Assembly: GCA_002726205.1 (NCBI GenBank)
Contig: PBSL01000057.1
Location: 1-64,000 of the forward strand
Reading direction: 5' to 3'
DNA length: 64,000 bases
Source of the DNA: Planctomycetaceae bacterium
GTDB lineage: Bacteria; Planctomycetota; Planctomycetia; Planctomycetales; Planctomycetaceae
The translations under genes were made by a program, and so were the position numbers. Shown piece after piece: positions 8,849 through 16,838 of this stretch. How positions within the stretch are numbered: the first letter of the stretch is position 1; every line of letters begins with the position of its first letter. The notes beneath the pieces were generated by a model. That model saw only the letters and a list, made by a program, of their open reading frames with translations, was not told the DNA's origin and did not search any database.

Positions 8849-10294
8849 ATGACCGAGACGCGGCCGATCGATCGTCGCCTGCTAGCCGGGCTCAGCCGTC
8901 GAGAATGGCTCGACCGGGCCGGGTGCGGATTCGGTGGCCTGGCGTTTTCTGCACTGGCGACCGGCGAGAGCCTGGCGGCGACCGCCGACCGCTCCCTGAC
9001 CGTTCGAACGACTCATTTCCCGGCCCGGGCCAAGCAGGTCATCTTTCTCTACATGCACGGTGGTTGTTCGCACATCGACTCGTGGGATCACAAGCCGGCG
9101 CTGGTAGCACGCGACGGCCAGACCTTGCCGCAGTCGGTCAACACGGATCGCAACAAGTTCAACCAGGGCCTGGCCCGGATCATGCAACCGCCCTGGCGAT
9201 TCCGGCAATACGGTGACAGCGGATCGTGGGGCAGTGACCTGTTTCCGGAAATCAGTGCCCGGGCCGACGACCTGTGTTTCCTGTACTCGATGTACAGCAA
9301 CAACAATGCTCACACGCCCGCGACGCTGGAACTGCATACCGGTTCGCAGACGTTGATGCGACCCAGTGTCGGTTCATGGGTGACCTATGGTCTTGGCAGT
9401 CGCTGCGACAACCTGCCGGGGTTCGTCACGATCTGCCCGCCGTTGACCTACGGTGGGCAGCGGAATTTCGGAGCGGCCTTCCTGCCCGCGGTTTACCAGG
9501 GGACGATGGTCGGAACCAATCGGCTGCCGGTGGCCAAGGCCGAAATTCGCAATATCACAGCCGTTCGATCGGCCCGTGAGCAGAGGCGGTTGATCGACTT
9601 CATCGCCGCAGGCAACAGCGAACAGCAACAACGGGATGGCCGCGACAGCACGCTGGAGGCCCGGATCGCCTCCTTCGAACTCGCATTTCGAATGCAGCAG
9701 GCAGTACCCGAGGTCCTGGATATCTCCGAAGAGACACCGGCGACACGCCGGCTTTACGGGATCGACGACAAGCTGACCGAGAACTACGGTCGCGAGTTGC
9801 TGTTGGCCCGTCGAATGATCGAGCGGGGTGTGCGGTTTGTGCATGTCGCCCACACCGGTGGTCGAGGAGGGCGTTGGGACCAGCACAGTGCTCTGAAGAA
9901 ACGTCACCAGGAGAATGCCCGCAGTTGCGACCGGCCGATCGCCGGCCTGGTCCAGGACCTCAAGCAACGCGGACTGCTCGACGACACGCTGGTTGTCTGG
10001 AGCACCGAGTTTGGACGGACTCCCGAGCGACAAAACACGACCGGCCGGGGCCACCACGCCCAGGGGTTCACGTTCTGGTTGGCCGGTGGAGGTGTGAAGA
10101 CAGGTTTCGGGTACGGGGCCACCGACGAGTTTGGTTACCACGCGACCGAAAATCCCGTCAGTATTCACGATCTGCACGCGACGATCCTGCACCTGCTTGG
10201 CCTGGATCACACGCGACTGACCTACCGTTATTCTGGACGGGACTTTCGCCTGACCGACATCCACGGACGGGTCGTCTCGGAAATCATCGCCTAG
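8849..10294 (+). CDS. DUF1501 family protein, Tat-exported
   Basis: A 481-residue DUF1501 protein immediately downstream of the PSCyt gene, the usual genomic partner. The N-terminus has a twin-arginine signal, SRREWLDRAGCGFGGLAFSAL. The conserved blocks include IFLYMHGGCSHIDSWDHKP (N-terminal metal-site region), GGRWDQH, STEFGRTPE and GRGHHAQGFTFWLAGGGVKTG. I chose ATG 8849 over an upstream TTG/ATG because it begins just before the Tat motif; the longer frame adds 19 residues that do not look like signal sequence. It is a paralogue of the genes at 2045 and 10374. It probably works on or beside the PSCyt protein outside the cytoplasm, but no activity can be named. Confidence 0.88.
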   Translation: MTETRPIDRRLLAGLSRREWLDRAGCGFGGLAFSALATGESLAATADRSLTVRTTHFPARAKQVIFLYMHGGCSHIDSWDHKPALVARDGQTLPQSVNTDRNKFNQGLARIMQPPWRFRQYGDSGSWGSDLFPEISARADDLCFLYSMYSNNNAHTPATLELHTGSQTLMRPSVGSWVTYGLGSRCDNLPGFVTICPPLTYGGQRNFGAAFLPAVYQGTMVGTNRLPVAKAEIRNITAVRSAREQRRLIDFIAAGNSEQQQRDGRDSTLEARIASFELAFRMQQAVPEVLDISEETPATRRLYGIDDKLTENYGRELLLARRMIERGVRFVHVAHTGGRGGRWDQHSALKKRHQENARSCDRPIAGLVQDLKQRGLLDDTLVVWSTEFGRTPERQNTTGRGHHAQGFTFWLAGGGVKTGFGYGATDEFGYHATENPVSIHDLHATILHLLGLDHTRLTYRYSGRDFRLTDIHGRVVSEIIA

Positions 10295-10373
10295 CCCAGG
10301 CTCGCCGTTGAGCCGAAGGCAGTTTGTTGCCGATTGGCTTTATGGGTACAATGACCCACTGAAGGAGTCACGG

Positions 10374-11804
10374 GTGAAACGTTCGGCATTCTCCTCTGTT
10401 GTGCAAGCCGGTCCGCCTGGTTGTTCCGGATTCCGTGCCTGGCAGCGGATGACGCGCCGCGAAGCATTGCGGATCGGTGGCCTGGGCGGCGTGGGATTGA
10501 CGTTGCCGGAGTTATTCCGTCGGCGGGAGGCGATGGCAGCCGGGCCCGTGGCCACGGGCACATTCGGACGTGCCAAGACGGTCATCATGCTGTTCCTGCA
10601 CGGTGGGCATCCACAGCAGGAGACCTTTGATCCCAAGCCCGAGGGACCGTCGGCGGTGCGGGGAGAGTTCGGGGCGATTGCCACGAGTGTTGCGGGTGTC
10701 AGGTTCAGCGAGGTGCTGCCGCTGACGGCGGGGATAGCCGATCGCCTGGCGATCGTGCGTTCGATGAGCCACGAGAACCCAAACCACGTCCAGGCCTGCC
10801 TGCCGGCCCAGACCGGTCACGCGCATCCCAAGGGATTTCGTTCACGCGGTGACTTTCCACCGTCGGCCAGTGATTTTCCGCCCGTCGGAGCGGTGCTGGA
10901 TTCGGTGCGGCCGGCCGATGGTGACCTGCCGACCTGGGTTCGAGTCGGGCCATTGATGCGACGCAGCAACGGCACGACCCTGCACGGACAACTGCCGGGG
11001 CTGCTGGGAGCGGCCCACTCGAGCTTCGTGGTGAACCAGCCGTTGACGGCCCCTGACGTGAAAATCCAGGCCATCCGCCCCAACAACGACCTGACATCGG
11101 TTCGGCTGACAAGCCGGCGGGATCTCCTGGTGCAATTCGATCAGCAACGACGCCTGATCGACGAAGTGGCCGCGGCGCAGAACCTCGACCGCTTCTACCA
11201 GCGGGCCTTCAACCTGCTCAGTTCACCACGGACCCGCAACGCGTTTGCGCTGGCCAGTGAGCCGCAGGCTCTAAGAGATCGTTACGGCAAGACCGAGTTC
11301 GGGCAGCGCTGCCTGCTGGCTCGTCGCCTTGCCGAGGCCGGCGTGCCGATGGTCAACATCAGCTACTGTCACACACCTCGTGGCAGCTGGGACACGCATG
11401 GTCGCAATTTCTCGAAGATGAAGGACTCGCTTGGTCCCACACTGGACCAGTCGCTGACGGCATTGGTCGAGGACCTGGGTGAGCGGGGGATGCTCGACGA
11501 AACACTGGTCGTGGTTAACGCCGAGTTTGGGCGGACACCCAAGATCAACGGCAATGCCGGTCGTGACCACTGGCCCTGGGTGTACTCTCTGGCGCTGGCG
11601 GGGGCTGGAGTCCATGGGGGAAGTGTCCACGGTGCGTCGGACGAATCGGCCGCCTATCCTGTTGCCAACCCGCACGACCCCGCGGATTTCGTGGCGACGG
11701 TGTATCACCTGCTGGGGCTGCCGCCGGAGACGATGATTGCTGATGCCACCGACCGGCCACTCCGCGTGGTTCTTGGTCGGACGATCGCTCCCCTGTTGTC
11801 CTAG
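10374..11804 (+). CDS. DUF1501 family protein, Tat-exported (GTG start)
   Basis: A 476-residue DUF1501 protein. The start is GTG 10374: AAGGAG at 10362-10367 sits six bases before it, whereas the longer frame from 10308 has no such signal. The Tat-like signal is MTRREALRIGGLGGVGLTLPEL. Family blocks are VIMLFLHGGHPQQETFDPKPEGP, SWDTHGRNF, NAEFGRTPKINGNAGRDHW and GASDESAAYPVANP. It follows the 8849 gene by 79 bases and ends only 30 bases from the convergent esterase gene. The three DUF1501 proteins at this locus differ enough from each other to be old paralogues rather than recent duplications. Confidence 0.88.
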   Translation: MKRSAFSSVVQAGPPGCSGFRAWQRMTRREALRIGGLGGVGLTLPELFRRREAMAAGPVATGTFGRAKTVIMLFLHGGHPQQETFDPKPEGPSAVRGEFGAIATSVAGVRFSEVLPLTAGIADRLAIVRSMSHENPNHVQACLPAQTGHAHPKGFRSRGDFPPSASDFPPVGAVLDSVRPADGDLPTWVRVGPLMRRSNGTTLHGQLPGLLGAAHSSFVVNQPLTAPDVKIQAIRPNNDLTSVRLTSRRDLLVQFDQQRRLIDEVAAAQNLDRFYQRAFNLLSSPRTRNAFALASEPQALRDRYGKTEFGQRCLLARRLAEAGVPMVNISYCHTPRGSWDTHGRNFSKMKDSLGPTLDQSLTALVEDLGERGMLDETLVVVNAEFGRTPKINGNAGRDHWPWVYSLALAGAGVHGGSVHGASDESAAYPVANPHDPADFVATVYHLLGLPPETMIADATDRPLRVVLGRTIAPLLS

Positions 11805-14197: not shown

Positions 14198-14431
14198 CTA
14201 GTTCGCGTCGTCGTCGCTGTCGTCCTGCTGTTGTCTTTGCGAATAGGCCCGTTCGGTGTTGTAGAGCAGGAATTCGGGGCCGGCCGGGAAGAACTGGACG
14301 TCATCGCGGAGGTAATACCCCGACGGCAAAGTCTGGCCACCGACGGTCGTCTGGCAGCCGGTCAGACCCATCGTGGTCAAGGCGACCAGTAGCAGCAGTC
14401 CGCTTCCAAGCCGTTTCCAGGACGTCTTCAT
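14198..14431 (-). CDS. small planctomycete lipoprotein
   Basis: A 77-residue lipoprotein. MKTSWKRLGSGLLLLVALTT is a signal sequence ending in the lipobox LTGC, with Cys26 as the lipidated residue. The mature part, QTTVGGQTLPSGYYLRDDVQ and onward, is short, followed by FFPAGPEFLLYNTERAY and an acidic Asp-rich tail. I recognise this GCQTTVGGQTLPS pattern as common in planctomycete genomes, with no known function. The ATG at 14431 is chosen because the signal peptide starts there; the longer frame adds 33 residues without signal character. It lies downstream of the GspE-like gene on the same strand and probably sits in the membrane facing the periplasm. Confidence 0.75.
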   Translation of the reverse strand: MKTSWKRLGSGLLLLVALTTMGLTGCQTTVGGQTLPSGYYLRDDVQFFPAGPEFLLYNTERAYSQRQQQDDSDDDAN

Positions 14432-14572
14432 ATCGAGTCGAGCCTCTGGTTTCTGCAACGGGGGCCACAATGTCGGCCAACACCTATACAGATCGGCCGT
14501 TACAACCAGAAACTTCGGAAAAACCGGCAAGTTTTAACACCGGCTTGCTGACCGAGGGCTGCCCCCAATCGG

Positions 14573-15925
14573 TCAATTCCCCTTGAAGGCTCGCTGCAGT
14601 TCTTCCAGCGACGTGGTTCCGTCGGCAACCAGCCGCATCGCGTCGTTCTTCAAGGTCCGCATTTTTTCGGTTCGTGCCTGCTCTCTGAGTGCGGTCGCAT
14701 CAGCGCCGCCGGCCAGGAGCCCCTGCATTCCCTCGGACATCTCGATCAACTCGAAAATCGTGGTTCGCCCGAAGTAGCCCGTGTCGTCACAGGTCGTACA
14801 CGGCTCCCATTCCTCGCCCTTGGGAAGAGGCTCCACCGGTGGGCTGGCCTTGCGGTACAGCACTGTGATCTCGTCGGCTTTCAAGCCGATCTTCTTCATC
14901 AGCTTGGGGCTGGGTTTGAAGGCTTCCTTGCAGTCGTTGCATAACTTGCGGATCAGCTTCTGGCTGAGAACGCCACTGAGCACCTTGGCGGCAAGTGCCC
15001 CGTCGCCAAGCCACTCGGCCATCTGCAGGATCCCCGTGGCGGCGTCGGCGGCGGTGATCTCGGAGATCATCACCGCATCGTCATAGAAGCCAGCCACGAC
15101 CCGGGCATCCTCGGCGTTTCGGATCGGGTCGAGCAGGATCACTTCGGCCTCGACGCGGATGCATCGCCTGAGCGTTTCCTGCAGGTCGTGGGTCGGGTCG
15201 GTGTCGAACGTGGAGATGTTGAGCAGCGATCTTCCCTCGGTGTCTCCGATCGTGAAGATCACGTGGAGGTAGGCGTCAAGTCCTCTGACCGACGCATACA
15301 ACGTGGTGGTGATGCCGGTTCGTGAGGGTCCGCAGACCAGGAACAGTTTCTTGCGACCCGAGGTCAAATTGCGGATCGCGAGCTTCAGCTCCGAAGGCAT
15401 CCCGATGTGTTCGGGCTTTTCGAGTTTCTCGTCGAGGTTCCGGATGTAGACCAGCAACCGTTCCATGCCCCCGGCCACCGGTGTGGTCATCGTCTTCAGT
15501 TCGAATTCGTCTTCGCCCACCGAGGCCTTGACGCCACCGGACTGGGGCTGGGTTCTTTCGGAGATGTCGAGTCCGCAGAGAACCTTGGTCATCTGGGTCA
15601 TGGCGTGGGCACGTTGCTTGGGGACCCGACCGGCCGGGATCGCGACCCCGTCGATCAGAAAGGCAATCGTGGCTCGGTCGCCCTTGGGCTCGATCCGGAT
15701 CGTGTCGGCACGCCGTGTGACCGCGTCGGTGAAGAGTTCCTTGAGGGGTTCCAGCGCGATCTTGACCAGCTTGGCGTTGGCTTCCATTTCCGGTGGGACA
15801 CCGTTGAGTGCCCCCTGGAATCGGATCAACTCGACCTCGGCTTCTTCGAGAATCTCAGCCTGCTTCTTCTTGCCGAATTTGAAGATCACCTGAAGGCTCC
15901 TGGGAATCACGATACCGGGGGGCAT
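14573..15925 (-). CDS. GspE/PilB-like type II/IV secretion ATPase homologue with degenerate nucleotide site
   Basis: A 450-residue member of the GspE/PilB secretion ATPase family by overall pattern. An N-domain has ADTIRIEPKGDRATIAFLIDG and GLDISERTQPQSG, the ATPase core follows, and there is a tetracysteine zinc site (CNDC near 329, CTTC near 377) followed by GYFGRTTIFELIEM. The nucleotide site is broken. Walker A reads GPSRTGITT (about 197-205), with Ile where the lysine should be. The Walker B region reads VILLDPIRN instead of the usual GEIRD type. The His-box TLHTNDA is replaced by ISEITAADAA. It is therefore probably a catalytically dead paralogue, perhaps a regulatory subunit. Start 15925 lies 13 bases after the dapA stop; a start further upstream inside dapA is possible but unlikely. 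Confidence 0.8.
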   Translation of the reverse strand: MPPGIVIPRSLQVIFKFGKKKQAEILEEAEVELIRFQGALNGVPPEMEANAKLVKIALEPLKELFTDAVTRRADTIRIEPKGDRATIAFLIDGVAIPAGRVPKQRAHAMTQMTKVLCGLDISERTQPQSGGVKASVGEDEFELKTMTTPVAGGMERLLVYIRNLDEKLEKPEHIGMPSELKLAIRNLTSGRKKLFLVCGPSRTGITTTLYASVRGLDAYLHVIFTIGDTEGRSLLNISTFDTDPTHDLQETLRRCIRVEAEVILLDPIRNAEDARVVAGFYDDAVMISEITAADAATGILQMAEWLGDGALAAKVLSGVLSQKLIRKLCNDCKEAFKPSPKLMKKIGLKADEITVLYRKASPPVEPLPKGEEWEPCTTCDDTGYFGRTTIFELIEMSEGMQGLLAGGADATALREQARTEKMRTLKNDAMRLVADGTTSLEELQRAFKGN

Positions 15926-15938
15926 CAATTCTGCCACG

Positions 15939-16838
15939 TCAGCCGTTCTCGGACAACAGACCGTATCCACACAACGTGGCCGAGAGCTTCTCCTGTTCGG
16001 CGTCATCCAGCGGCGTCATCGGCAGGCGGACCTCGCCGGAGTCGCGACCGAGCAGCTGCATGGCCGCCTTGATCGGAATCGGATTTGTCGCCAGTCCCAG
16101 CAGGTCGCGGCAGAGCGGAAACAGGCGGGTGTGCCAGTCCTGCGCCGTGGCCAGGTCGCCGTTGTCGAAGGCCACGAGCATCGCCTTGACATCGTCGGGG
16201 ATGATGTTTCCGACGACCGATACAACGCCGCGGCCTCCGATTGACAGCAGCGGCAGCGTGAGGCTGTCGTCGCCGGAGAGGATGGTGAGGTCGGAGATGG
16301 CCAGGATCTGTGAAGCCTGGTCCATCGAGCCGGTCGATTCCTTGACCGCCACGACGCTCTCCAGTTCACCAATCCGGGCAATCGTCTCGGGTTCGATGTT
16401 CTTGGCCGTCCGTCCCGGGATGTTGTAGAGCACGATCGGCAGATCGACGGCCTCACAGACGGCCCGGTAGTGCTGGTAAAAACCCTCCTGCGTCGGCTTG
16501 TTGTAGTAGGGGGCTACCATCAGCGATGCGTCGGCACCGACCGACTGGGCGAACTGGGTCAAGCGGATCGCCTCGGAAGTGCTGTTGGAACCGGTGCCGG
16601 CCATCACCTTGATCCTGCCGGCCGCCTGTTCGCACACGATTCCGATCACCTGTTCGTGTTCGTCGTGTGAGAGTGTCGGGCTCTCCCCGGTCGTTCCGAC
16701 CGGACTGAGGCAATCGGTTCCCGACTCGACGTGAAAGTCCACCAACGCCCGAAGTGCCGCCTCGTCGATTTCTCCATCAGCGAATGGAGTGACCAACGCC
16801 ACGGTCAACCCGGCAAAGCTCTCGCCCTTTCCCACCAT
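15939..16838 (-). CDS. dapA: 4-hydroxy-tetrahydrodipicolinate synthase
   Basis: Class I aldolase that condenses pyruvate with aspartate semialdehyde, the first committed step to diaminopimelate and lysine, in the cytoplasm. The 299-residue length is normal for the family. Key residues are in place: GTTGE (Thr49/Thr50), YYNKPTQEG, Tyr138 in YNIPGRT, Arg143, and the Schiff-base Lys166 in VAVKESTG. The related KDG and N-acetylneuraminate lyases share the fold, but the [11 protein letters not shown] and YNIPGRT context favours DapA. It is followed after 13 bases by the GspE-like gene and preceded by the dehydrogenase gene, so these three may be co-transcribed. Confidence 0.93.

Follow-up and report, generated by a model that had tools for sequence, protein, structure and literature searches.

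What does a member of the GspE/PilB family do when the residues that hydrolyse ATP have been replaced: is its gene decaying, or does the protein work without catalysis? Catalytic motifs are the usual means by which the motor ATPases of pili and secretion systems are recognised. The question is raised by a minus-strand frame at 14573–15925 of the window (the whole stretch of Planctomycetaceae DNA that was analysed, 64,000 nucleotides), which a preliminary description had read as a GspE/PilB homologue with a destroyed ATP-binding site, selected as a pseudo-ATPase and lying between dapA and a lipoprotein gene. The features of the locus are as follows.

15939–16838, minus strand: dapA, the upstream neighbour (PF00701)
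14573–15889, minus strand: pseudo-ATPase coding sequence, T2SSE/GspE-PilB family, 438 aa, GTG start preferred (PF00437, orthologue N-termini, AGGAG)
15800–15889, minus strand: N-terminal tail, consisting of (M)IFKFGKKK, an acidic linker and LIRFQGALNG, without a membrane segment (alignments)
15305–15331, minus strand: degenerate Walker A, GPSRTGITT, with Ile in place of Lys but the loop glycines and Thr intact (counts in 63 orthologues)
15116–15142, minus strand: degenerate Walker B, VILLDPIRN, with Pro at the position of the catalytic Glu (orthologue counts and PilB mapping)
15041–15064, minus strand: former His-box, SEITAADA, lacking His and carrying Glu277 in the 438-aa numbering (orthologue counts)
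14936–14959, minus strand: KLIRKLCN, with the inter-subunit Arg equivalent to PilB R455 and the start of the first zinc CxxC (counts and PilB mapping)
14789–14803, minus strand: region of the second zinc pair, PCTTC (each Cys in 62/63)
14198–14530, minus strand: small downstream lipoprotein-like ORF, 110 aa, no Pfam match over cut-off

Homology to GspE and PilB was borne out by a full-length match of the ORF to PF00437 (T2SSE; 151 bits, E 5e-44, cut-off 24.9) and by alignment of residues 60–443 with PilF, GspE and PilB of known structure. Against the NCBIfam equivalogs GspE, PilB and ComGA, the protein scored 185 bits at best, under the curated cut-off of 630. The frame is open for 450 codons, as had been described; given the conserved (M)IFGFGK start of the aligned orthologues and an AGGAG seven bases upstream of the GTG at 15889, translation probably begins there rather than at the ATG at 15925, which would shorten the coding sequence to 14573–15889 and the protein to 438 aa. 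Both the tetracysteine zinc site (CNDC...CTTC) and the C-terminal GRTTIFELIEM reported earlier are present in the protein. A structure prediction from a three-sequence alignment (the window protein, L069 and L070) reached a pLDDT of 33 and a pTM of 0.19.

Comparison with 63 aligned orthologues revealed that the catalytic losses, which had been read correctly from the single sequence, are shared across the family. None of the 63 has intact Walker motifs. The Walker A lysine is absent from every orthologue, its position being taken by Val in 44, Thr in 10, Leu in 7, and Ile and Ser in one each; both loop glycines are kept in 63/63 and the following Thr in 61/63. The position of the catalytic glutamate after Walker B is Pro in 56 of the 63 and Glu in one, and the former His-box contains a His in none, with a new Glu277 in 62. 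The single sequence with Glu at the catalytic position (L059, genome G303; GELDG) also lacks the Walker A lysine.

Mapping of the family to Geobacter metallireducens PilB (chain 5tsg_B; offset 20), with residue roles taken from the literature (PMC5424180), agreed at twelve of twelve literature-named reference residues and extended the list of losses beyond the preliminary description. The catalytic E395 position is Pro, and the Mg-coordinating Asp-box glutamate (E357), both His-box residues (H413 and H420) and the contact threonines T327 and T411 are lost. Of the arginine-finger positions, R271 is Arg in 16/38 and R286 is Arg or Lys in 28/38, the window protein having Lys and Tyr. The inter-subunit arginine equivalent to R455 is Arg in all 63 orthologues, and each of the four zinc cysteines is kept in 62. 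Compared with PilB and GspE (PDB 5TSG, 4KSR, 1P9R and 5OIU), the window protein thus shares homology over the whole domain, including the tetracysteine site and the R455-type inter-chain arginine, but lacks the Walker A lysine, the catalytic and Asp-box glutamates, the His-box and the N1 domain, and has no pilus or secretion genes nearby.

At a threshold of E <= 1e-62, orthologues were found in 161 of 170 Planctomycetaceae genomes, representing 57 of 58 genera. The nine genomes without a full orthologue are all draft assemblies, and at least three of them (G362, G385 and G357) hold truncated or split copies. The closest named relatives are Planctomycetaceae genomes from metagenomes. Close orthologue pairs have dN/dS values of 0.03–0.27, and in the tree all pseudo-ATPase copies form one clade with support of 100/99. 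These results uphold the earlier view of a selected pseudo-ATPase: judged from its sequences, the gene is a family-wide conserved pseudo-ATPase under purifying selection, predicted not to hydrolyse ATP, and very probably encodes a functional component with a non-enzymatic task instead of being in decay. That the gene is decaying, was lost recently or is misassembled has the missing catalytic residues and nothing further in its favour; the loss of the same residues across 63 orthologues, frames that are open with rare exceptions, the low dN/dS and the near-universal presence of the gene in Planctomycetaceae already contradict this reading, making it highly improbable. One orthologue (G365:C828:2677-4035), in a draft genome that is 62% complete, has one in-frame TGA, which is probably an assembly error.

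The surroundings of the gene were also as described. The dapA assignment was supported by PF00701, and the other flank carries the 110-aa lipoprotein-like ORF. A second T2SSE gene was not found on the contig of the window, and the listed ORFs of the window showed no prepilin motif, in agreement with the earlier remark that the window has no other secretion or pilus gene. Across 24 orthologue loci, no pilus or secretion gene family recurred; the dapA cluster was near the orthologue in 11 and ORFs like that at 14198–14530 in 6. In 13 of 19 genomes the orthologue has dapA close by on its own contig, an arrangement that speaks for vertical inheritance and carries no functional hint. A functional link to dapA was considered and rejected, as the arrangement looks like inherited gene order and about one genome in three lacks it; dapA is probably a conserved positional neighbour and not a functional partner.

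A point beyond the preliminary description is that the nearest kin of the window protein is, with good support from sequence comparison, not PilB or GspE but an active, membrane-anchored paralogue that we call TM-GspE, a GspE-like protein of about 600 aa with N-terminal hydrophobic segments and a PF00437 ATPase domain. The copy in the same genome as the window lies at 9606–11429 of locus L116, on the minus strand, and is 28% identical to the window protein (alignment A2), or about 29–34% over the ATPase region. The two proteins have derived sequence in common, including segments that are absent from PilB: AKEL..DA..RRA, KPxPxLLxKxGLP...YRPP and a C-terminal RLVxxGxTSxxELxRxxK are shared, and the LIRFQG of the window protein (LIRFQGALNG in its tail) aligns with the PIRFxGKS (GPPIRFxGKS) of TM-GspE. 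In genomes without a full pseudo-ATPase copy, a profile of the pseudo-ATPase family scored TM-GspE at about 324–339 bits, whereas no other T2SSE protein exceeded about 224 bits. In the tree, the pseudo-ATPase clade is on the TM-GspE side, with PilB and GspE at the far end. Two degenerate TM-GspE sequences (L036 and L039) have long branches and an unsure position, and may have been placed next to the window family by long-branch attraction.

The window protein resembles TM-GspE in ATPase-domain layout, N2 start, linker, C-terminal motifs and zinc cysteines; it differs in that TM-GspE is membrane-anchored and, in Planctomycetaceae, keeps its catalytic residues, whereas the window protein has neither property. 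Its tail of about 50 residues has no N-terminal membrane segments, and it has no neighbouring CvpA-like gene. It looks like a duplicate of TM-GspE that lost the membrane segments. The zinc cysteines are lost in one pseudo-ATPase (L029, genome G152) and in one TM-GspE (L156, genome G311).

TM-GspE itself belongs to a gene set that occurs in several planctomycete families. A CvpA-like membrane protein adjoins it, with PF02674 above cut-off in L117 and below in the genome of the window, and a gene for a PilT-like ATPase is nearby in about half of 20 genomes, with an intact Walker A in the PilT-like neighbours checked. The set of PilT-like, TM-GspE and CvpA-like genes was seen in the window's own genome (L116:8845-12625, on G000:C21) and at L117, L119, L120 and L124–L131, with no pilin gene seen alongside in the loci that were read. 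Literature searches found no description of this set, nor of planctomycete pilus ATPases, of CvpA with PilT or of pseudo-ATPases of the GspE/PilB family. The conserved pseudo-ATPase also draws attention to this planctomycete set of TM-GspE, CvpA-like and PilT-like proteins.

The role that we favour, at slightly less than an even chance, is that the pseudo-ATPase, arising by duplication of TM-GspE, is a non-hydrolysing subunit, ring or regulator of the TM-GspE/CvpA-like/PilT-like machine, a proposal in which function, oligomerisation and partnership alike are what we infer. A membrane-anchored TM-GspE would have duplicated, and the soluble copy would have dropped both the anchor and ATP hydrolysis while retaining the fold and the ring-forming features; the product would act as a dead ring, subunit or regulator, with the energy for the machine coming from TM-GspE and/or the PilT-like ATPase. 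This role is suggested by the origin of the protein, the kept ring contact and zinc module, the purifying selection and a precedent in PilT: a PilT with a dead Walker A supports PilU-driven retraction, which deletion of pilT does not (PMC6821130). As in the type IVa pilus pair PilT and PilU, the proposal involves paralogous motors in which a hydrolysis-dead ring is still useful (PMC6821130); unlike the case here, wild-type PilT and PilU are both catalytically active, the dead PilT is an engineered mutant, and the pair belongs to another branch of the family. Evolutionary rates of the pseudo-ATPase covaried weakly with those of TM-GspE (r 0.32, permutation p 0.02) and of the PilT-like protein (0.28), compared with 0.60 for the pair TM-GspE and CvpA-like. 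The absence of gene linkage to TM-GspE, CvpA-like or PilT-like, none of which lay beside the pseudo-ATPase gene in any locus examined, counts against a partnership, and the weak covariation may do so too. Two genomes, G299 and G308, keep TM-GspE with no pseudo-ATPase copy detected, which argues that TM-GspE does not strictly depend on the pseudo-ATPase.

Because the P-loop skeleton is kept, the protein might still bind a ligand that it does not hydrolyse. A second reading, to which we give about half the probability of the favoured role, is that this ligand is a nucleotide or some other phosphate compound, which the protein would sense in order to regulate pili, secretion or other processes. 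The near-invariance of the skeleton (both glycines and the Thr) despite loss of the lysine would fit such a sensor, as would the newly near-invariant Glu277 beside the old site, since an unconstrained site would be expected to drift; however, the Walker A lysine, Asp-box glutamate, His-box and catalytic glutamate are all gone, the R271 and R286 equivalents are only partly kept, and the glycines may serve loop structure only. We consider it unlikely that the partner is instead an ordinary PilB or GspE motor of type IV pili or type II secretion, with the pseudo-ATPase as a mixed-ring subunit or inhibitor. The genome of the window does encode several PilB/GspE-like motors that are intact, along with pilus or secretion clusters, and such motors share the family and the inter-subunit arginine with the window protein, but sequence comparison places the latter much nearer to TM-GspE than to any PilB or GspE, and no pilus genes adjoin it in the loci examined.

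A shade less likely still is that the protein has left pilus-like machines altogether and taken up a scaffolding role in a planctomycete pathway unrelated to them, as its orphan location, its lineage-specific conserved N-terminal tail, the new Glu277 and the weak rate covariation with TM-GspE would allow. Against this reading, the protein still has the motor family's ring-contact arginine, zinc module and C-terminal domain, which suggests that an oligomer and a docking surface still matter.

A lineage-wide core gene with the body of a motor and no catalysis offers a natural test of what such rings do beyond burning ATP, and a catalytically dead ring that regularly forms part of the working machine would, if true, be a new architecture in the type IV filament motor family. 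Planctopirus limnophila is a genetically tractable planctomycete for which a genome-wide transposon screen has been published (PMC10632474), and it could be a testing ground for the pseudo-ATPase if an orthologue there is confirmed; the gene is not named in the main-text passages found for that screen.

Loss of catalysis in this subfamily extends beyond the window protein and its orthologues. Catalytic residues are kept in all Planctomycetaceae copies of TM-GspE examined; in seven or more further families of planctomycetes, TM-GspE proteins lack residues of Walker A, Walker B or the His-box (degenerate at L124, L126, L158, L167, L171, L172, L178 and L179; partly altered at L159). The PilT-like neighbours at L124, L125 and L126 retain their P-loops. 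Together these losses and the kept P-loop suggest, as a pattern rather than a demonstration, that the GspE-like ring of the TM-GspE system can function without hydrolysis. A planctomycete motor complex of PilT-like, TM-GspE and CvpA-like proteins, with no adjacent pilin gene, might tend to turn one GspE-like ring dead, the anchored copy in several families and a soluble duplicate in Planctomycetaceae, a generalisation that we regard as doubtful. The degenerate TM-GspE proteins of the other families belong to the same subfamily as the window protein and have likewise lost catalytic residues, but they keep the membrane anchor, and those at L124 and L126 adjoin PilT-like and CvpA-like genes.
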